Below, in pieces: positions 16,257-25,630 of a stretch of DNA of 34,102 nt. How positions within the stretch are numbered: the first letter of the stretch is position 1; each line of letters begins with the position of its first letter. The notes below the pieces were generated by a model. It ran no database searches. It saw nothing but the letters and a program-made list of their open reading frames with translations, and was not told the origin of the DNA. Origin of the DNA: Bacteroidota bacterium (GTDB lineage: Bacteria > Bacteroidota > Bacteroidia > Bacteroidales > FEN-979); the NCBI GenBank assembly GCA_026391715.1, contig JAPLDO010000215.1, positions 1 through 34,102 on the forward strand. Reading direction: 5' to 3'. Position numbers and translations under genes: made by a program.

Positions 16257-17129
16257 TTATGGGATAAGCATGACCAATTTATCGGCAATCAGCGAAAGCA
16301 TAACGACCATCATAAAAAGGTTGGCGGCAATAAAAATCAATCGGTACCTGATTGCAGCGGCTATGAACAACTGGTATGCCAGAAGTAGCAATAATGAGAT
16401 GTTTAGCGCGATTAAGGCATACCCCAAAACCGGGAGATGCAGGATTTTAAAATAGATTAGCAGGTATGAAGCGCCTGACGAGGCAATCATCCATGCCATC
16501 ACCACCGTTTTGATCTGAAATTCATTGAAAAAATCGGTCAGAACCGGGAATCCTGCAGCGCTGTATTCATGTCCATATTTTAGCGTCAATAACCAGAAAT
16601 GCGGCATTTGCCAGATGAACAGAAAAAATGCAAGGAAAAGAACTTCCGGGGCAAATAGCGACCCTCCTGCTGCCGTCCATCCCATGAAAATGGGAATAAC
16701 GCCGGTGAGAGCGCCAGGAACTACTGCAAAGGCGGTTATTCGTTTTAAAGGAGTGTAAACGCCGTTGTACCAGATAAGGTTGAACACTCCGAGAATTAAA
16801 CATAACCCGGTTGATTCATACATGAGAATTACCAACCCTCCGGCGATTCCGATCAGCGCAATCCGAAGTCCTTCGGCAGGACTTATTCTGCGGGAAGGAA
16901 TCGGACGGCGGCGGGTGCGATCCATCATCTCATCATAAGCCCATTCCTGGTATTGATTAAAAGCGGAAGCGCCCGAAGCGAGTAAGAATATACCGGCAAC
17001 CGACCATAGCATGCCGACCTGAAAATCGCCTTTAACGATGAACATGGCTGTAAATGCCGTAAATGTCACAGCGAGTGTGACCGGTAAACGGATAAGGGTA
17101 AGAATGTCCTTAAAACCGGCGTTATACAA
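16257..17129 (-). CDS. cyoE: Protohaem IX farnesyltransferase (haem O synthase)
   Basis: UbiA-family membrane prenyltransferase that adds farnesyl to haem B, giving haem O, the precursor of haem A in the caa3 oxidase encoded just upstream. The 290-residue protein has the first aspartate-rich motif as NQYQEWAYDEMMDRTRRRP (N-x3-E-x3-D form), YTPLKR, the second loop with HFWLLTLKYGHEY, and about nine hydrophobic helices. No ATG exists near the N-terminus; TTG at 17129 gives a start that aligns with family members (FKDILTLIRLPVTLAVT). It begins 35 bp after the coxB stop. No haem A synthase (ctaA) is in the window, so it must be elsewhere if haem A is made. Confidence 0.93.
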   Translation of the reverse strand: MYNAGFKDILTLIRLPVTLAVTFTAFTAMFIVKGDFQVGMLWSVAGIFLLASGASAFNQYQEWAYDEMMDRTRRRPIPSRRISPAEGLRIALIGIAGGLVILMYESTGLCLILGVFNLIWYNGVYTPLKRITAFAVVPGALTGVIPIFMGWTAAGGSLFAPEVLFLAFFLFIWQMPHFWLLTLKYGHEYSAAGFPVLTDFFNEFQIKTVVMAWMIASSGASYLLIYFKILHLPVLGYALIALNISLLLLLAYQLFIAAAIRYRLIFIAANLFMMVVMLSLIADKLVMLIP

Positions 17130-17164: not shown

Positions 17165-18070
17165 TTATTTGAGCGTTTTCAGGTATTCGATCACTTTGGT
17201 CATCTCCGCATCGGAAATAATTCCTTTATAGGTTTTCATAATTCCTTTCTGAAATCCGACCACTACATCCCTGTCGGGTTCATATACAGAGAATCTGAGA
17301 TATTCATCATCAACCGTTACAGTACGCTCCTTTCCGTTGGTGATAACTTTTTCGGATTTTCCATATAATCCTTTGAACGACGCGCTCACCAGTTTTGAAC
17401 CATCGAGCGAATGGCAACCTGTGCAGGCATTTTTCCTTAGAATGGAGAGTCCTTCAGGTTCATTTGTTTTATCAGGTAAAGCCTTGAGCCACGCAGCATA
17501 TTCAGCATCAGAAACAACCCTTGCTTTCGTTTCCATATATGAGTGCCGAACTCCGCAAAACACCGTACAAAGCACATCATATTCGCCTAATTGACTTGAC
17601 ATGAACCACATGTAATTCTTTTTCCCCGGAACTACATCTTCCTTCACTCTGAATGCAGGGATGTAAAGAGAATGGATAACATCCTCGGAATATAGGTTCA
17701 GTCTGATGGGCTTATTAACAGGAACAACCAGTACCGGCGATTGTTTTCCGCCCTCGTATTCAAAGTTCCACACCCACATTTTGCCGATTACCTTTATAGG
17801 AATGGCGTCTTTTGGAACATTCCGCATCGGATTGAACGCAACGTAACCATAGTAAAACATAAGAAGCGCCAGGATAAGCGGTATCACAATCCACGTAAAT
17901 TCCAGCATATTGCTTTCCTTGATCTGCACGGCAACAGGATGCCTCTTGCGGTTGTACCGGTAAATAAACCAGAGCATCACGGTTGTTATTCCGACCAGAA
18001 AAAACAAACTGATACCGAAAATGACCTTAAAAGCCAAATCTACACCTTCAACATAGTTTGAAGCGCTCAT
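17165..18070 (-). CDS. coxB: Cytochrome c oxidase subunit II with fused cytochrome c domain (caa3 type)
   Basis: Electron entry subunit. Two N-terminal membrane helices (about 12-36 and 56-78) are followed by the CuA cupredoxin domain and a C-terminal cytochrome c. CuA ligands are present: H133 (DVIHSLYIPAF), C168, C172, H176 and M179 in CTVFCGVRHSYM. The residue that gives the backbone carbonyl ligand, normally glutamate (C-x-E-x-C), is V170. The cytochrome domain has CTGCH (C216, C219, H220) and a probable axial methionine M278 (GIMKTYKG). The fusion marks a caa3 oxidase. The gene sits after subunits I, III and IV, an uncommon order, and is separated from coxD by a repeat-filled 110-bp gap. 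Confidence 0.95.
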   Translation of the reverse strand: MSASNYVEGVDLAFKVIFGISLFFLVGITTVMLWFIYRYNRKRHPVAVQIKESNMLEFTWIVIPLILALLMFYYGYVAFNPMRNVPKDAIPIKVIGKMWVWNFEYEGGKQSPVLVVPVNKPIRLNLYSEDVIHSLYIPAFRVKEDVVPGKKNYMWFMSSQLGEYDVLCTVFCGVRHSYMETKARVVSDAEYAAWLKALPDKTNEPEGLSILRKNACTGCHSLDGSKLVSASFKGLYGKSEKVITNGKERTVTVDDEYLRFSVYEPDRDVVVGFQKGIMKTYKGIISDAEMTKVIEYLKTLK

Positions 18071-18180: not shown

Positions 18181-18465
18181 TTATCTCAACAAATAATCTG
18201 ATAATGTAAATAAAATGACAAGAACATAAATCATTAGTACCATTGCCACGAAAACCCTGAATAAAGATGATTCAAATTTCAAATGCATAAAATAGGTAAG
18301 AACGATATAGGCTTTAACTGTGGCAATTATTAATGCGATAGCTACAGTAAGAGCCGAAAGGTTAATCCAGGTAACAGTTACTGTGATTAATGTCAGCGTC
18401 ATCAAAGCAATCAAAACCCAGGCGTAAGTACGATACGGAGTTATATGAACTGATTCGGTTTGCAT
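18181..18465 (-). CDS. coxD: Cytochrome c oxidase subunit IV family protein
   Basis: A 94-residue membrane protein with three hydrophobic helices (about 14-33, 36-58 and 66-91), the architecture of bacterial oxidase subunit IV (CyoD/CtaF-like). The segment KAYIVLTYFMHLKFE is typical: the conserved F-M-H-L stretch between helices 2 and 3. It follows subunit III and precedes subunit II. The symbol is given by position and family only; nomenclature varies. Confidence 0.85.
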   Translation of the reverse strand: MQTESVHITPYRTYAWVLIALMTLTLITVTVTWINLSALTVAIALIIATVKAYIVLTYFMHLKFESSLFRVFVAMVLMIYVLVILFTLSDYLLR

Positions 18466-18515: not shown

Positions 18516-18544
18516 TTCACTACCTCGCTAATTTGCTACTTCTA
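18516..18544. repeat. Degenerate 8-bp repeat abutting the subunit III stop
   Basis: TTCACTAC, CTCGCTAA, TTTGCTAC and TTCTA form a degenerate period-8 run. The TAG stop of subunit III (18544-18542, minus strand) is the last part of the run. The unit resembles the array at 25699-25726. Confidence 0.7.
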
Positions 18545-19135
18545 CGTTATCAGATACAACAACGGAAAGAGGAATATCCAGATTAAATCCACCAGATGCC
18601 AGTACAGCCCGCCATTTTCCAAAAGGACATAACTACCAGCATTTACCGCTCCTCGCTGAACTTTAATTGCTACGATAGTAAGGATGATTCCGCCGACAAT
18701 AAGATGAAACATGTGCAAGCCGGTCATGAAAAAATAGAGACTGAAAAACATGATGGAGCCATGATTAAGGGTTAGCATCAGTTGGGAACCCGGATAAAGT
18801 CCGATTGAGAATTTGTGACCCCATTCAAAATATTTGTTGACCATAAAAACGGCAGCGCACAACAGCGTGACAAACAGCAGGATCACGGCAGTTTTTTTGT
18901 CTCCCTTTTGCACCGCCGTAATTGACATGGCTACGCTGGCACTGCTGACAAGGAGCGCAATTGTATTGACGGTACCGATAAAAGCATTCAGGTGGTGAGC
19001 ACACTGATGGAACTCAACGGAATAACGGTTACGCATAATTGCGTAAACCAGAAATAAACCTCCAAACAGTAAAATCTCCGTGAAAATGAATATCCACATT
19101 CCAAGTTTTGCGCCAATGTCATCGCGATGTTCCAT
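18542..19135 (-). CDS. coxC: Cytochrome c oxidase subunit III
   Basis: A 197-residue, five-helix subunit III of the haem-copper oxidase. Conserved features include KLGMWIFIFTEILLFGG in helix 1, the FEWGHKF segment, the lipid-site stretch MTGLHMFHLIVGG and the C-terminal NGGLYWHLVDLIWIFLFPLLY. The short five-helix form is usual for many bacterial caa3 and quinol oxidases. It begins 65 bp after the subunit I stop, in a gap that contains a 7-bp repeat array. Confidence 0.95.
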   Translation of the reverse strand: MEHRDDIGAKLGMWIFIFTEILLFGGLFLVYAIMRNRYSVEFHQCAHHLNAFIGTVNTIALLVSSASVAMSITAVQKGDKKTAVILLFVTLLCAAVFMVNKYFEWGHKFSIGLYPGSQLMLTLNHGSIMFFSLYFFMTGLHMFHLIVGGIILTIVAIKVQRGAVNAGSYVLLENGGLYWHLVDLIWIFLFPLLYLIT

Positions 19136-19200: not shown

Positions 19201-20328
19201 TTATTTATAATCATAAGGTCCTTCATTTTCCTTCAATTCCGGCATCACTTCAAAATTTTCAACCGGGGGCGGCGAAGGAATCTGCCATTCAAAAGTTCGT
19301 CCTCCCCAGGGGTTATCCGGAGCTTTAGCGCCTTTTTTACTTGCGAGGGTAATGAGCATGATTACGATGCCGATTACCAGCAGTAACGCGCCGAAGAAAG
19401 AAAGCTGGTGTCCGAAGGTAAATTGGGGCAGGTAATCGAAATAACGACGAGGCATCCCCATTATTCCTATAACGAATTGCGGGAAATAGAGCAGGTTGAA
19501 CCCTGCAAACAGGAAAACAAACGACCAGTTTGCCATTTTAAAGTTGTACATCCTGCCGAACATTTTTGGATACCAGTAATAAACGGCTGCGAAAAAGGCA
19601 AAACCAACCCCGCCGAAAACAATATAATGGAAATGGGCAACCACGTAGGCAGTGTCATGCACATGAATGTTGGTGGCGAGTGCGCCAAGAGATAACCCTG
19701 TCATACCGCCAATCATAAAGAGAAAAATAAACCCGACAGCAAACAAAAATGGTGGCGCCATCTGAATTGAACCTTTATACATGGTGCTCACCCAGTTGAA
19801 AACTTTGATAGCGCTTGGCACTGCGACGAGAAAAGTCAGGAGCGAGAATATCCAGCGGGCTGTTGTGCTCATCCCGGAAGTGTACATGTGATGAGCCCAA
19901 ACGAAATAACCAACAAGCGCAATGGCAAGACTGGAAATCGCAATTGCCTTGTATCCGAATATCCTGCGTTGTGAAAATGTAGGTATAATCTCTGTGATTA
20001 CGCCCATAGCCGGAAGGATCATAATGTAAACTGCAGGATGCGAGTAAATCCAGAAAAGATGCTGGTAAAGAATCGGGTCGCCACCGAGTGAAGGATCGAA
20101 AAATCCGATTCGCAACCACCGTTCGGCAATAATCATCAGGAGCGTGATTCCGACGATAGGCGTTGCCAAAACCTGTATCCATGCAGTAGCATATAGCGCC
20201 CAGGGAAAAAGCGGCATCTTGAAGAAGGTCATTCCGGGAGCGCGCATCCGATGCATAGTAACAATAAAGTTCAATCCGGTAAGGATGGAAGAGAATCCGA
20301 GAACGAAAGCGCCGAATACTGCCGCCAC
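19201..20328 (-). CDS. coxA: Cytochrome c oxidase subunit I, C-terminal part (frameshifted coxA)
   Basis: This frame carries most of the catalytic subunit: haem a3/CuB ligands in [13 protein letters not shown] (first CuB histidine and cross-link tyrosine), [10 protein letters not shown] (the His pair on CuB), VAHFHYI (haem a3 and a ligands) and the K-channel lysine in SAIKVFNW. The E of HPEVY is A and the histidine is preceded by YS, the signature of A2-type oxidases such as that of Rhodothermus marinus. The listed start is only the first GTG; conserved sequence continues upstream in this frame ([15 protein letters not shown], from about 20382). The N-terminal part lies in another frame at 20351-20782, so the gene is interrupted or the sequence has an error there. 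Confidence 0.9.
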
Positions 20329-20350
20329 TACGTTGGTATTCGTCTGAATA

Positions 20351-20782
20351 CTATACGGCGCGTAAAACGTCCATCCGGTGTCGGGAGGTCATCGCAGCGC
20401 CGAGGATATACAGATAGAACGAGAAAAGGTTCAGCCTGGGAAAAGCAACATCCTTTGCGCCGATCATGATGGGCATGCAGAAGTTCCCGAAAACTGCCGC
20501 CAGTCCGGGAATGACTACAGTAAAGATCATGATGATCCCATGAATGGTAAAAATCCCGTTGTACATCTGCGGGCCGTAAAACTGCTGACCCGGAAAGAAC
20601 AGTTCAATTCTCATAATGACGCCAAGAAGTACCCCAACAATAAAGAATACCATCATGGCATACATGTACATAAGCCCGATCCGTTTATGATCGGTTGTCG
20701 TCAGCCATGCCATCAGGCCTTTGTACTTCCCTGTGTTAACCAGATAGTTTGGCTCAGGGTGATGAATTTTTCCTTCGGTCAT
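20351..20782 (-). CDS. coxA: Cytochrome c oxidase subunit I, N-terminal part (frameshifted coxA)
   Basis: First membrane helices of subunit I, starting [16 protein letters not shown] at ATG 20782, one base after the SCO stop. Recognisable are [12 protein letters not shown], the low-spin haem histidine in [10 protein letters not shown], and [19 protein letters not shown]. After GAAMT the frame reads a non-homologous tail ([11 protein letters not shown]) and stops. The true continuation, [13 protein letters not shown], starts within 10 bp in a different frame. Compared with family members, which have several residues between GAAxT and DTGW, about 20 bases appear to be missing. I treat both parts as one gene. 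Confidence 0.88.
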
Positions 20783-20783
20783 A

Positions 20784-21581
20784 TTATGAATTTTGGATTT
20801 TCGATTTTTTTCGCGATGAACGGACAATCAAAATGATAAATAGAAGAACGGCAAAGAAAATAATCACCGTCGCCGTGATTTTTGTTACCTGAAGCGTATA
20901 TTTTCTTCCTTCCGGATCGTAACTGAAACAATATTCCAGCGCCCGGTTTATTGTGGGCCTTGATTGTCCTTTCTGAGCTTCAATGACAGCCATTTTAACG
21001 TCAAACGGAAGGTATGACGTTCCATAAAGGTACCGGGTAACTTTCGCTTCAGGGCTTAAAACCATGATACATGAGGGATGCATGAAGTCATTTCCCTGAC
21101 GCTGGAAATTGTATCCGAGAGTATGGGTCAGCGCGTAGATGTTGGCGCTGTCGCCTGTCAGGTATATCCAGTTAGAGGCTCGGCTGCGGCTGTGTTTGCC
21201 AAGGTAATTTTTCTTTTTTTCGATGGCTTCGGCAGGAGTGTCGAGATCATTGAAACTCACAGTTATTATCTGATAATCCTTACCAAGTTCCAGTCCTATC
21301 TTTTCAACTACATCGGATACACCGGAAAGGAGCGCAGGACAAATTCCCGGACAATCATAATAAACCAGCGAAAGAATGGTTGGCTTATTAATCAGGCTTT
21401 TCAACTGAACTGGTTGTCCCTGCTCATTGTTGAAGGTGATTCCTGCCGGAATGATTGTATCAAGATGCTCCACGATGCCAACTTCTTCGGGGTTGCCATC
21501 CTGGGCGAATATTTTTGCCGGCGTAAATGCGAGGAACAAAAGAAAAATTAAACAAATACAGGGAGAGTTGAATTTTGTCAT
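20784..21581 (-). CDS. SCO1/SenC-family copper chaperone
   Basis: Thioredoxin-fold protein that delivers copper to, or reduces, the CuA centre of subunit II. The 265-residue product has an N-terminal signal/anchor (about 8-26), the copper motif DCPGICP (C77, C81), the distant ligand H168 in DFMHPSC, and a C-terminal membrane helix (about 233-255). The C-terminal helix places it as membrane-bound with the thioredoxin domain outside. It is one base from the coxA start, so expression is coupled to the oxidase. Confidence 0.93.
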   Translation of the reverse strand: MTKFNSPCICLIFLLFLAFTPAKIFAQDGNPEEVGIVEHLDTIIPAGITFNNEQGQPVQLKSLINKPTILSLVYYDCPGICPALLSGVSDVVEKIGLELGKDYQIITVSFNDLDTPAEAIEKKKNYLGKHSRSRASNWIYLTGDSANIYALTHTLGYNFQRQGNDFMHPSCIMVLSPEAKVTRYLYGTSYLPFDVKMAVIEAQKGQSRPTINRALEYCFSYDPEGRKYTLQVTKITATVIIFFAVLLFIILIVRSSRKKSKIQNS

Positions 21582-21780: not shown

Positions 21781-22293
21781 TTATTTGTTTTTATCAATTT
21801 TATATCCAATAGGTTTCCTGGGTTCATTTGCATTTTGGTGCAAAGCATCGAGTTTGTCGAGTAAAAACCTGAAAGCCTGATTGAGCTTGGCGTCGAGTTT
21901 CAGGATTTCCTGTTTCAATTCCTCGGTTTCTCGTATTAACGCCCTGTAACGCGCAAAAGCCCGCATGATTTCGATGTTCATTTTAATTGCTCTTTCGGAA
22001 TGTAATACCGAAGAAAGCATTGCAACGCCTTGTTCGGTGAATGCCAGTGGATTTACAGAAGAATGTTTCAATATTGTTAACCGGTCACAATTTGTGACCA
22101 GTTCATTCTTCTCATTCTTAATGAGTTCAAACATAAAATCTTCAGGAAACCGTTCAATATTACGTTTAACCTGTTGCTTCAATGCTTTTGTAGGAACGCC
22201 GTATAAAATTGCCAAATCAGCATCAATCATTACTTTGAAACCTCTGAATTGAAAAATCATGGTTTCATATTCAGGTTTTATTAAATTATTCAT
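21781..22293 (-). CDS. ORF6N-domain protein
   Basis: A 170-residue protein with an N-terminal ORF6N domain (about 10-100): VMIDADLAILYGVPTKALKQQVKRN, RFPEDFMFEL and AFTEQGVAMLSSVL are the standard motifs. The domain occurs in phage antirepressors and in many chromosomal proteins of Bacteroidota; it is thought to bind DNA. The remainder (about 110-155) is a predicted coiled coil (RETEELKQEILKLDAKLNQAF). It interrupts the respiratory locus, between the cytochrome c and SCO genes and on the same strand. TAATTTTG at 22358-22351 could be its own promoter. Role unknown; I see no reason to link it to respiration beyond position. Confidence 0.85.
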   Translation of the reverse strand: MNNLIKPEYETMIFQFRGFKVMIDADLAILYGVPTKALKQQVKRNIERFPEDFMFELIKNEKNELVTNCDRLTILKHSSVNPLAFTEQGVAMLSSVLHSERAIKMNIEIMRAFARYRALIRETEELKQEILKLDAKLNQAFRFLLDKLDALHQNANEPRKPIGYKIDKNK

Positions 22294-22403: not shown

Positions 22404-23309
22404 TCAGGCTTTTGCAACTTTTCTTATTTTTAGGATAGAAATGATTATATAAATGATAAATCCCCAGATAATCAGGACTGAGCCGGTATAGGTTATGGCA
22501 AGCCAGATTGGGGTCTTATCGCGGGTTGACCACCACGCGCGGGTTTCGGTTAAACCGGGTTTATCGGTTGGGGCGCCGATAGCGAAACTGCCGGAAGCCG
22601 GGGTTGATTTCATGAGGTTTTTCGGGTCATTAACTTTTGCGGTTATATCAACATAACCATCTTTATTCCCAGGAAGGTCAAATGGAAATTCAAATGCCGC
22701 CTCGCCTTTGGCGTTTGTTGTTTTCATATCCCCAACCTGCATGTTTCCAAAATACCTTTTTACATAAAGTATTATTTCGACTCCGGCGGCGGGGCTCATA
22801 CTTCCGTCTTTCAGTTTTTCAGTGGCAGTTGCGATTACTTTTTTCATCGGATCGCTATATTGCAGGGCAAGTGTGACAACACGTCCGGAAAATGAGCCTT
22901 TAGCGGAAGGATCGGGCTGAACATATTTTGGATTGAAAGTACGGATGAAGGCGATCACATTCCAGCGGTCGTCATCTGAAAGGATGTTCCGAAATTCGGG
23001 CATTGGGGCTTTTCCGGTGGTGATACGGTAGTATAATTCGCCATCGGTTTGCAATTGCGCCTTGTCTTTGGCAAGGTCGCCCGGAGGAGGAGTCAGCTTC
23101 ATCCAATTGTCTTTACCGGGAAGTCCATGGCATGACTGGCATATTTTCATGTAAACCTGTTCTCCCTGTTTTTGCATCTCCTGCGTAAATTTGATTGGAG
23201 CGCAAACTGCTTTCTGATCATCAGGAACTACCCAGGTTTGAGCGGTTGCGATCATCGCGGGAGCCGATGTTAACACCGCAATAATAAGGATTAATTTTTT
23301 GAAACGCAT
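22404..23309 (-). CDS. Membrane-anchored monohaem cytochrome c (ActE-like)
   Basis: Signal peptide (about 1-24), one class I cytochrome c domain with CQSCH (C57, C60, H61) and the likely axial M103 in KAPMPEF, then an Ig-like/beta-rich region (about 135-245) and one C-terminal membrane helix (about 271-294) with a basic tail. The domain order suggests an extracytoplasmic electron carrier tied to the membrane. It follows the NrfD-like gene by 21 bp. By position it could take electrons from the Fe-S/NrfD module and pass them to the cytochrome c domain of coxB. A single-haem cytochrome (ActE) has this role in Alternative Complex III, though the beta-rich insert is different from what I know of ActE. 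Confidence 0.85.
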   Translation of the reverse strand: MRFKKLILIIAVLTSAPAMIATAQTWVVPDDQKAVCAPIKFTQEMQKQGEQVYMKICQSCHGLPGKDNWMKLTPPPGDLAKDKAQLQTDGELYYRITTGKAPMPEFRNILSDDDRWNVIAFIRTFNPKYVQPDPSAKGSFSGRVVTLALQYSDPMKKVIATATEKLKDGSMSPAAGVEIILYVKRYFGNMQVGDMKTTNAKGEAAFEFPFDLPGNKDGYVDITAKVNDPKNLMKSTPASGSFAIGAPTDKPGLTETRAWWSTRDKTPIWLAITYTGSVLIIWGFIIYIIISILKIRKVAKA

Positions 23310-23330
23310 AGTATCCGGCTTATTTCTTTG

Positions 23331-24662
23331 TTAATCAAATTTGATATGCTCAATCCCTTTTTCCTTGGCAGTTTCGTGTAGCGGAATTACAGGAAAAAAC
23401 TTGGAGATCAGCGTAATTATTATTAGCACAAGGATAAATGGGGCGATTGAAATCAGAGTTTCGATCAGAGTTGGCGAATAGTGCATGAAGTTTTGAGGCA
23501 CATGCTGAATTGGGAGAAAAGGATGTTCCTGCGTTGGAATTACAATCAGATAACGCTTGATCCAGGCGGCGATTAAAACTGCTACGGAAATCAGCATAAT
23601 TGGCAAAGGCTTGCGGAAAGGCTTGAACATCATCAGAATAATTGGGATAAGGAGTCCGCCTGTCTGAACCAGCCAGAACAGTAAAGCGTCTTTTCCGGCA
23701 AGCAACTCATGCAGATGAACTGCGTCGGCGCGTTTCAGTTTATATCCGGGAACCAAAAATTCATTGATATTAAAATATAGATAAACCAGTGAAACCGTAA
23801 CGAGGACTTTTCCCATATTGCTGAAGTGCAAATCGGTGAGGTAATCCTGTAGTTTATAGTTCTTCCGGAAAAAGAACATGGCGATAATCACCGCCGCCGA
23901 ACCTGCGACAAAAGCTCCGGAAACAAAATATGGTCCAAAAAGCGTTGAATCCCAGCCCGCTCTTGAAGTAACTGCAAAAAGCCATGACGTCACCGTGTGA
24001 ATTGATAATGCGGCAGGAATGACGAGTATCAGGAGAATTCTGATACACCGGTTAATAATTTTGTTTTGCTCAGGGCTGTCGGTAAAATTCAATGATAATG
24101 TTTTATAAACCGGTTTCAGCCATCCCGGCAAGGAGGTGGATTTGCGATGAATAATTGCCATGTCGGCAATCATTGGCAGAAACAGCAACAACAGGCTAAG
24201 TACAAAGTATGTTGTAATTACTGTAACGTCCCAAAAAATCGGCGACTGAGCTCTTCCGTAGATGAACACATAAGCCAGTCGTTCTGGACGACCCATGTCG
24301 GATACGATTACCAGTCCGGCAACTGCGGCAAAGGCAACGGCAATGGTTTCTGCAATACGCGTCAGCGGCGTGATCCATTTCATCCCGATCAAACCCAGCA
24401 CAGCGCTTATCAACATTCCGATGAGGCTTGACGCAACAAAGAAAACAAAGTTAGACAAGTAAATGCCCCAGGTAATGTAGTCGCGGATACCGGCAACGCC
24501 CAGTCCTGTTTTCAACTGAAGCGAGTATGCATAAAGGCAAATAAGCAACGAAACGGATAGAAATCCCATCCAAAGCAGAAAACCTTTATTAATCCTGATA
24601 TGATGAGTGAGATCGTTGAGGATTTTATCGAAGGTTGGTTTGTTATCTTCCATGTTTGTCAT
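23331..24662 (-). CDS. NrfD/PsrC-family quinol-interacting membrane protein (ActC-like)
   Basis: A 443-residue integral membrane protein with about ten hydrophobic helices (roughly 27-50, 66-94, 102-121, 142-165, 206-230, 243-265, 284-304, 327-346, 352-374, 398-422). Ten helices, and the segment SIHTVTSWLFAVTSRAGW followed by FGPYFVSGA, resemble ActC/ActF of Alternative Complex III more than the eight-helix NrfD proteins. It would oxidise menaquinol and pass electrons to the Fe-S partner. Start and upstream stop overlap in ATGA (24662-24659), so it is translationally coupled to the Fe-S gene. Confidence 0.88.
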   Translation of the reverse strand: MTNMEDNKPTFDKILNDLTHHIRINKGFLLWMGFLSVSLLICLYAYSLQLKTGLGVAGIRDYITWGIYLSNFVFFVASSLIGMLISAVLGLIGMKWITPLTRIAETIAVAFAAVAGLVIVSDMGRPERLAYVFIYGRAQSPIFWDVTVITTYFVLSLLLLFLPMIADMAIIHRKSTSLPGWLKPVYKTLSLNFTDSPEQNKIINRCIRILLILVIPAALSIHTVTSWLFAVTSRAGWDSTLFGPYFVSGAFVAGSAAVIIAMFFFRKNYKLQDYLTDLHFSNMGKVLVTVSLVYLYFNINEFLVPGYKLKRADAVHLHELLAGKDALLFWLVQTGGLLIPIILMMFKPFRKPLPIMLISVAVLIAAWIKRYLIVIPTQEHPFLPIQHVPQNFMHYSPTLIETLISIAPFILVLIIITLISKFFPVIPLHETAKEKGIEHIKFD

Positions 24663-25630
24663 ACTTTTTCAGGAGTTTCCGGGTTGATATTCTCAAATGG
24701 GAAAAGCCGGTTTTTCGGCGGAAGGTAATATACTCTTGGTTTTGTTCCAAGCTCAGGCATCAACTGATATCCGCCGTTATCGCGTAAAAGTTTACTGAGC
24801 CTGACAGTTTCACGGGTAGTTCCGTTGGTGACAGAATCTTCATTTTCATCGCCGAAATAATAAACACCGTTTGGGCAGGCTGATACGCAGTAAGGAAGTT
24901 CGCCTTCGCGGAGGCGGTCGGCGCTGAACAGACATTTAGATACAGTTCCCAGTTTCTGAGGAACATTCAGTTCAGCATTGTATTCTTTATCCTGGTATTT
25001 CGCAGCGTCTCTCGGTTCAAGCCAGTTAAAAATTCTTGCAGAATAGGGGCAGGCAGCCATACAAAAGCGGCAGCCGATACAGCGATCGTTCTCTATAAGC
25101 ACAATGCCGTCGGGACGTTTGTAAGTAGCGTCAACCGGGCAAACAGCCACACATGGCGGATTATCGCAATGCTGGCAGTTTTTCGGAATATGATAAGGAG
25201 CCGTGGCAGGCGTATCCTGTATCTGGAGCGTGTTGAGATGATATTGTTCAGGGCGAAGCTGATGAGCTTCCTGGCAGGCGGCGATACAACGGCGTGCGTT
25301 GCGGCACTTTGACAAATCAGTTACCATGACCCAGCGACGACCCGGGATCCCTCCGCGACAAAGGGATTCACTCAGCTCTTCACCGCTCTTTTCATGCGCT
25401 TTAATTTCGAGGGAATCAACCCGAACCAGTTTTCCATCCTGAGTGAGCAGGACCTTGCTATCGCCCGAAACCTCCTTTTTTGCCTCGAAAATGCCGCCGG
25501 AATAGAGAGCGGCAGCTCCGGTGGCAACGCCAACTCCTGCAAGTCCCAGGTTTTTCAGAAAGTTTCGCCGCGAAGCGGCTTTTTGATTCTCTGCGCCGTC
25601 GGGCAAATGAGAATTATTGTTATATTCCAT
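24659..25630 (-). CDS. Tat-exported four-motif Fe-S protein (ActB ferredoxin part / PsrB-like)
   Basis: A 323-residue electron-transfer protein with a Tat signal (SRRNFLKNLGLAG, 20-32). Cysteine motifs: I C109, C115, C119 with alanine at 112; II C152, C155, C160, C164; III C184, C187, C190, C194; IV C233, C248, C252 with serine at 236. Motifs II and III are complete and should hold two [4Fe-4S] clusters. Motifs I and IV have each lost the second cysteine. In this fold they build one pair of clusters together, so both may be [3Fe-4S] or absent. It lacks the molybdopterin-like N-terminal domain that ActB has. It is the first gene of the locus, with its own promoter. Confidence 0.9.
   Translation of the reverse strand: MEYNNNSHLPDGAENQKAASRRNFLKNLGLAGVGVATGAAALYSGGIFEAKKEVSGDSKVLLTQDGKLVRVDSLEIKAHEKSGEELSESLCRGGIPGRRWVMVTDLSKCRNARRCIAACQEAHQLRPEQYHLNTLQIQDTPATAPYHIPKNCQHCDNPPCVAVCPVDATYKRPDGIVLIENDRCIGCRFCMAACPYSARIFNWLEPRDAAKYQDKEYNAELNVPQKLGTVSKCLFSADRLREGELPYCVSACPNGVYYFGDENEDSVTNGTTRETVRLSKLLRDNGGYQLMPELGTKPRVYYLPPKNRLFPFENINPETPEKV

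Follow-up and report, generated by a model that had tools for sequence, protein, structure and literature searches.

The alternative complex III (ACIII, ActABCDEF) of Rhodothermus and Flavobacterium oxidises quinol and reduces cytochrome c, and it accompanies a caa3 or aa3 oxidase. In F. johnsoniae, cytochrome aa3 is reported to receive its electrons from ACIII alone, with ActE being dispensable (PMC8552683). Smaller systems have also been reported. The NrfCD pair of Melioribacter is described as a quinol:acceptor reductase (PMC3534657), and a TMH1-DsrOhPh-tetrahaem locus of cable bacteria is called a candidate alternative complex III (PMC13047784). The concept of an iron-sulfur (Fe-S)/NrfD pair feeding a cytochrome has precedents in both sources. 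Here, we analyze three consecutive genes in a stretch of 34,102 nucleotides (the window) from a Bacteroidales genome (GCA_026391715.1, contig JAPLDO010000215.1). They encode a Fe-S subunit, an NrfD-type membrane subunit, and a monohaem cytochrome c. This three-gene module is very probably a compact (mena)quinol:cytochrome c oxidoreductase, filling the complex III step in Bacteroidales without bc1 and ACIII. Within open-licence papers, we found no title or abstract describing it.

The three-gene module

The host genome has 5.02 Mb and is 98.99% complete, and the window is its contig C26. An earlier reading of this DNA (the original prediction) had pointed out three consecutive minus-strand genes. 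They are present as it described them:

24659-25630, minus strand: Fe-S subunit, 323 amino acids, with the twin-arginine start SRRNFLK; exported by twin-arginine translocation (Tat), DsrO/NrfC-like
23331-24662, minus strand: NrfD-type membrane subunit, 443 amino acids, of the quinol-binding type, with about 10 helices
22404-23309, minus strand: monohaem cytochrome c, 301 amino acids, with one CxxCH and a C-terminal membrane helix

The Fe-S and NrfD genes overlap by 4 bases; the cytochrome gene starts 21 bases after NrfD. The window had also been said to lack ActA, the molybdopterin-like domain of ActB, ActD, and ActF, and our results agree. Only two frames of more than 80 amino acids in the window contain CxxCH (the module cytochrome and Cox2), with one motif each; therefore, the window holds no multihaem ActA. 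The Fe-S protein has ferredoxin domains only, without the ActB domain, ActD was negative, and no ActF is present in the window.

The genome search revealed no rival complex III. There is no ActD (PF11821) in the genome; among 14 named control genomes, the profile was positive in Thermus composti only, and 47 of 295 genomes of the order have it over the cut-off. Likewise, no bc-type cytochrome b was found with PF13631 and PF00033, each of which gave matches in 8 of 14 named controls; Rieske was not searched for. The absence of the pentahaem ActA and the molybdopterin-like ActB domain refers to the window, as these families were not searched for genome-wide.

Distribution and co-occurrence with oxidases

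The Fe-S protein gave 586 named relatives; we compared the loci of the best 80. The fused cytochrome is present in 16 of them (L037-L052), titled Bacteroidales, Bacteroidetes, Prolixibacteraceae, or Paludibacter. In fifteen of these loci, the three module genes are accompanied by SCO and Cox1; the contig of the sixteenth stops after SCO. The oxidase genes of L049 lie on the opposite strand. Cox1 is not in the examined flank of the remaining 64 loci (L053-L116). The recurrence of the gene set greatly exceeds what chance would give.

The order-wide sample consists of 295 genomes of Bacteroidales, with families taken as 120. In these counts, the module means Fe-S, NrfD, and fused cytochrome read together, unless the cytochrome alone is stated. 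A caa3-type Cox1 is present in 74 genomes, CcoN over the cut-off in 54, and ActD over the cut-off in 47; 60 genomes have the fused cytochrome. In 54 of these 60, the Fe-S, NrfD, and cytochrome genes stand together. Three others show only NrfD and the cytochrome (G204, G209, and G277, whose contig begins inside NrfD), and three only the cytochrome (G072, G093, and G121). G094, with the haem domain only, is left out of the cytochrome count, and G318, below the cut-off, out of the ActD count. The CcoN count also leaves out matches under the curated cut-off (49 of 103 genomes), including fragments in G296, G316, G151, and G286, all with caa3. Weak ActD matches were kept in G277 (37 bits, with a stop), G073 (inside a 660-amino-acid frame), and G145 (partial, at a contig edge).

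The 74 caa3 genomes comprise 34 with the module only, 32 with ACIII only, six with both, and two with neither. By cytochrome alone, the numbers are 34, 31, seven, and two. In both genomes with neither (G171 and G262), the contigs begin inside SCO and Cox1. Considering caa3 and cbb3 oxidases, the module or ACIII is present in 90 of 96 genomes with an oxidase, compared with 5 of 199 without (93/96 and 6/199 by cytochrome alone). The six oxidase genomes lacking both are G046, G093, G171, G204, G209, and G262. The five oxidase-free positives are G052 and G106 for the module, and G049, G082, and G284 for ActD. Among ACIII-negative genomes, the module occurs in 46 of 52 with an oxidase versus 2 of 196 without (49/52 and 3/196 by cytochrome alone). 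The same contrast holds by families: 53 of 54 with an oxidase have the module or ACIII versus 2 of 66 others. For ACIII-free families, the module is in 25 of 26 with an oxidase and in 1 of 65 without (26/26 and 2/65 by cytochrome alone). Nineteen genomes have the cytochrome but no caa3, and 16 of them have cbb3.

Three families (f65, f98, and f119) mix module-only and ACIII-only members, in f65 through G100, where all three genes were read. This suggests that the module and ACIII were repeatedly exchanged within families.

Gene order across genomes

The module occupies the place of ACIII upstream of SCO-cox1, or adjoins cbb3 genes. Of the 18 stretches holding both ActF and Cox1, 13 have ActF on the strand of SCO or Cox1 and no more than 1 kb upstream of one of them. 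The fused cytochrome is within 12 kb of the caa3 Cox1 in 30 of 60 genomes, 25 of them within 2.1 kb. In nine genomes, it is within 3 kb of CcoN, so that it is near Cox1, CcoN, or both in 35. The module stands beside cbb3 genes in six genomes, 232-408 bases apart. In G056, the Fe-S, NrfD, cytochrome c, cbb3, SCO, and caa3 genes form a single cluster.

Fe-S subunit

The Fe-S protein matches Pfam Fer4_11 (75.9 bits). Its best NCBIfam match is DsrO, with 183.8 bits, under the cut-off of 200. The QrcC profile gives 115.3 bits, far under its cut-off of 400.

Fourteen cysteines lie beyond residue 100 (109, 115, 119, 152, 155, 160, 164, 184, 187, 190, 194, 233, 248, and 252). Two usual ligand positions are occupied by Ala112 and Ser236. 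We compared this pattern in 145 distinct Fe-S sequences, of which one keeps all 16 cysteines. All 46 oxidase-linked or fused Fe-S proteins show Ser236 and Ala112; their motif III is complete, and motifs I and IV are one ligand short. Ser236 is in none of the other 99 sequences. The non-fused Fe-S proteins have Cys236 in 80 of 80 cases, with Ala, Leu, or Val at position 112. Further Fe-S genes of fused modules conserve Ser236 in 30 of 30 cases (G071 among them was already counted, and two are in two pieces). Position 112 is Ala in 29 of these and Val in one (G234), so Ala112 is not universal.

The 18 ActB-type sequences lack a cysteine in motif III only, with Thr at the equivalent of position 187. 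Therefore, motif III corresponds to FeS1. We take motifs I and IV to share the two distal clusters in this fold. In R. marinus ACIII, FeS1 is reported as the membrane-proximal [3Fe-4S] cluster that accepts the electron from quinol (PMC5928083).

NrfD subunit

The NrfD subunit matches PF03916 (102.5 bits), and its AlphaFold model shows about ten long helices. DsrP is the best NCBIfam match (121 bits, under the cut-off of 350), and the QrcD profile reaches 48.4 bits, far under 570. Two ActC proteins reach only about 51 bits against the DsrP profile. The nearest PDB entry is ActC, by sequence (150 bits) and by fold (template modelling score 0.86-0.87), with ActF behind. DsrP is absent among the five PDB sequence matches.

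We built an NrfD tree with 75 rows (74 distinct), without DsrP, QrcD, PsrC, and enterobacterial NrfD sequences. The fused-module rows form one clade (34 rows, 100/98). It adjoins the non-fused Bacteroidota modules and is apart from the 11 ActC and four ActF rows. With NrfD outside the ActC clade, yet ActC nearest in the PDB, the subunit has an ActC-like fold but a descent separate from ActC. A tblastn search of plasmids (35 records) gave no named DsrP; the four opened records are two ActC and two haloarchaeal NrfD. The kinship with DsrP therefore rests on profile scores. The two haloarchaeal NrfD rows in the tree have long branches, and their placement is unsure. One haloarchaeal locus, on a plasmid of Halostagnicola larsenii (L216, 768-4368), has a HiPIP gene, a 16-Cys Fe-S protein, and an NrfD gene nearly consecutive. 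It is a possible archaeal counterpart with HiPIP as acceptor.

Residues of the quinol site are conserved. In an alignment read by eye, S140, D145, and R370 of NrfD align with Ser164, Asp169, and Arg395 of ActC, as numbered in PMC8076601. D122 replaces His139 of ActC, as Asp does in DsrP and QrcD according to the same source (PMC8076601). As in the NrfCD superfamily, a Cys-rich exported Fe-S subunit is paired with a PF03916 subunit carrying quinol-site residues.

Cytochrome c subunit

The cytochrome matches Pfam Cytochrome_CBB3 (46.7 bits) and belongs to the class I cytochromes c. Its haem motif, CQSCH, is at 57-61, and Met103 is invariant in a 17-row alignment. The AlphaFold model presents the haem domain fused to a beta-sandwich (about 143-242) and a C-terminal membrane helix (268-300). 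The confidence of this model is moderate (predicted local distance difference test 79.6, predicted template modelling score 0.44). By Foldseek, the haem domain resembles cytochrome c552 and ActE (6lod_E and 6f0k_E). The beta-sandwich had no significant Foldseek match, and all four matches of the whole cytochrome with E<=0.001 were cytochromes. Two lone fused cytochromes were located, at 5924 in L226 (G121) and 4775 in L233 (G072), with no Fe-S or NrfD gene in the 12 kb examined.

Comparison with known systems

Compared with ACIII, the module has a predicted function in the same quinol:cytochrome c step, also beside an A-type oxidase. Its NrfD has an ActC-like fold with the equivalents of Ser164, Asp169, and Arg395, and its cytochrome resembles ActE. 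However, the module is without ActA, the molybdopterin-like ActB domain, and ActF (in the window), and without ActD (in the genome). Its NrfD is outside the ActC clade, and it has Cys at position 187, where ActB has Thr. A trimmed ACIII is rejected on the tree, the ligand pattern, and the profiles. The module would do the work of ACIII, but it seems to follow its own line within the superfamily that they share. Thus, the original prediction of a reduced quinol:cytochrome c oxidoreductase that bypasses bc1 and ACIII is strongly supported for the function, by comparative genomics, and not supported for the kinship with a reduced ACIII. Neither of the two outcomes that it had named as refuting turned up.

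DsrO and DsrP of DsrMKJOP are the best NCBIfam matches of the two subunits. Nevertheless, both are under the equivalog cut-offs, no DsrMKJ was recognised beside the module, and the module is linked to oxygen reductases. QrcABCD shares a Fe-S/NrfD redox dimer with a quinone site, and several residues match by position. In contrast, its profiles are far under the cut-off, neither QrcA nor QrcB was recognised, and the direction proposed for the module is the opposite. The NrfCD-type and cable-bacterium pairs are also thought to donate to a c-type cytochrome. They are described with multihaem cytochromes, whereas the module has a monohaem c fused to an anchored beta-sandwich and is linked to caa3 or cbb3 genes.

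A nitrite, polysulfide, or tetrathionate reductase that lost its catalytic gene was also considered and rejected. No such reductase gene was recognised in the window (frames read by eye and profile scans of ten proteins). No catalytic partner was recognised in the frame lists of L042, L129, L132, and L135-L137 either; other loci were not searched.

Proposed function and alternatives

The role of the module is strongly supported by gene content and order, the absence of the searched alternatives, the co-occurrence with oxidases, the near-exclusion with ACIII, the ligand pattern, and the quinol-site residues. A physical complex, its direction, the electron path, the cofactor types, the use of menaquinol, and any proton translocation are inferred. 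According to PMC13059093, proton pumping by ACIII itself is not yet confirmed.

In the proposed mechanism, (mena)quinol would be oxidised at the periplasmic side of the NrfD subunit. Electrons would then pass through the Fe-S subunit, first by a four-Cys proximal cluster and later by distal sites with three Cys each. They would exit to the tethered monohaem cytochrome c, which may reduce either the caa3 oxidase, at its haem c, or a cbb3 oxidase. We also consider it likely, with less certainty than the function itself, that the module is a third kind of complex III, independent of bc1 and ACIII. It would have arisen from a DsrOP/NrfCD-like dimer, exchanging with ACIII between related Bacteroidales and serving caa3 and cbb3 oxidases. 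Its Fe-S wire would be retuned, with a four-Cys membrane-proximal site and two three-Cys distal sites; the latter would be suited to [3Fe-4S] clusters of high potential where electrons leave for cytochrome c.

Several observations weigh against this interpretation. Six caa3 genomes (seven by cytochrome alone) carry both the module and ACIII. Complete modules are in G052 and G106 without detected caa3 or cbb3, and the module and ACIII are both missing from G046, which has cbb3. G072 and G121, and perhaps G093, hold the fused cytochrome with no Fe-S or NrfD gene near it. PF00033 matches appear in 5 of the 34 module-only caa3 genomes: three of about 420-450 amino acids (G020, G027, and G316); the other two are weak and fall within frames of about 900. 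This tally takes in all 43 PF00033 matches, including the frames of about 900 amino acids and two short weak ones. The G027 match belongs to a cluster of cytochrome b, a short Tat protein, and an octahaem cytochrome. No cytochrome b match of any kind is in the other 29 of the 34. Besides, the genomes are related and their counts are not independent, which makes Fisher values at the genome level too small; the family counts lessen this effect of kinship and do not remove it. At the residue level, ActC Asp253 is lost, being Leu228 in NrfD. The Fe-S protein has Phe189 where QrcC has Tyr113 (position inferred from the motif). The change of Tyr113 to Phe in QrcC is reported to stop electron transfer, and PsrB of T. 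thermophilus to have Ala at this position (PMC13059093).

The same enzyme could work in the reverse direction, as a Qrc-like cytochrome c:menaquinone reductase feeding electrons from periplasmic donors into the quinone pool. QrcCD is described as working from cytochrome c to menaquinone (PMC13059093), and the DsrP and QrcD profiles both match NrfD, under the cut-off. D61, D122, S140, Y152, and R370 of NrfD are at the positions of QrcD D70, D120, S138, Y150, and R358 (offsets inferred; PMC13059093). However, the module replaces ACIII beside oxidases and tracks their presence. A periplasmic cytochrome could supply the oxidase directly. No donor enzyme was recognised in the window or in the frame lists of L042, L129, L132, and L135-L137; other loci were not searched. 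We regard this direction as very unlikely.

Slightly less probable still is an accessory role, where the module aids oxidase assembly (e.g., copper or thiol reduction via SCO) and another complex oxidises quinol. Its position directly upstream of SCO in many caa3-linked loci would fit. On the other hand, the module also adjoins cbb3 genes (the six genomes with 232-408 bases), it is nearly exclusive with ACIII, and 29 of the 34 module-only caa3 genomes have no cytochrome b match.

Finally, the non-fused paralogues of this genome (C255, C175, and C209) could do most of the quinol:cytochrome c work and make the window module redundant, as C255 and C175 are accompanied by a beta-sandwich anchor protein and by a monohaem c not fused to it, but this is the least probable alternative, since Cys236 is kept in all 80 non-fused Fe-S proteins, several examined non-fused loci adjoin multihaem cytochromes, DUF5777 barrels, or an EB_dh gene and not oxidases, and non-fused modules are also in Flavobacteriaceae.

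Paralogous loci

The genome has six NrfD genes: the one in the window, three in the paralogous Fe-S/NrfD pairs, and two others. One of these two adjoins a frame that looks of the molybdenum type by eye, and the other adjoins another Fe-S protein. Among the paralogues, C209 is cut by the contig end. The C175 locus (L123, 7264-15807) holds the non-fused Fe-S/NrfD pair, a hexahaem protein with an MtrC/MtrF-domain match, a DUF5777 beta-barrel, a heptahaem cytochrome, and a b561-type cytochrome. This cluster is a candidate outer-membrane electron conduit. In L059 (1590-12732), profiles place a non-fused Fe-S/NrfD pair beside an EB_dh protein and a DUF5777 barrel; L064 (1504-12802) and L090 (5675-12757) resemble it by eye only.

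Other gene clusters were also observed. In the relatives' loci L125, L126, and L127, a cytochrome b gene clusters with genes for an octahaem cytochrome c and for a short Tat protein that would be Rieske by its position. In G021 (L128 and L129), an ACIII cluster is followed by a dihaem cytochrome and a NarG-like-looking frame; the caa3 genes of G021 carry the three-gene module instead.

Oxidase genes in the window

The genes that follow the module in the window are:

21781-22293, minus strand: ORF6N-domain gene between the cytochrome and SCO (PF10543, 107 bits)
20784-21581, minus strand: SCO/SenC copper chaperone (PF02630, 40.1 bits)
19201-20827, minus strand: Cox1 in two frames, 20351-20827 and 19201-20328 (TIGR02891, 130 and 489 bits)
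18542-19135, minus strand: Cox3 (PF00510, 65.2 bits)
18181-18465, minus strand: Cox4-like small membrane protein, name inferred from position
17165-18070, minus strand: Cox2 with a fused haem c domain (CoxB TIGR02866, 157.1 bits, cut-off 147.7; PF00034 at 210-301)
16257-17129, minus strand: CtaB-like UbiA prenyltransferase (PF01040, 131 bits), haem O synthase inferred from context

Cox2 carries a fused haem c domain; therefore, the oxidase is of the caa3 type. The SCO and caa3 genes predicted after the module are thus present on the same strand, but the ORF6N gene intervenes and Cox1 is split in two frames. The ORF6N gene is probably not part of the machine. In L042, about 40 bases lie between the cytochrome and SCO, compared with several hundred in L037, L038, L040, and L046.

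In most listed relatives, Cox1 is a single frame of about 500-575 amino acids. An alignment with L042 indicates that Cox1 in the window is broken by a 29-base gap. Either the assembly is faulty here or the strain has a damaged caa3 oxidase. A genuine gap may mean that this enzyme no longer works; a cbb3 CcoN over the cut-off is also present in the genome. Among the 16 fused-cytochrome loci, 15 keep the Cox4-like frame between Cox3 and Cox2, and the CtaB-like gene adjoins the oxidase in 14.

Significance for Bacteroidales

An annotation that considers only bc1 and ACIII would leave a gap at complex III, as the 34 of 74 caa3 genomes in our sample have only the module. The fused cytochrome and Ser236 are sequence markers for tracking this trait. 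The module is also a small system for asking whether NrfD proteins pump protons. If the proposal is true, one Fe-S subunit, one NrfD, and one haem would do what the six-subunit ACIII does. It would be a third solution to a basic respiratory step.

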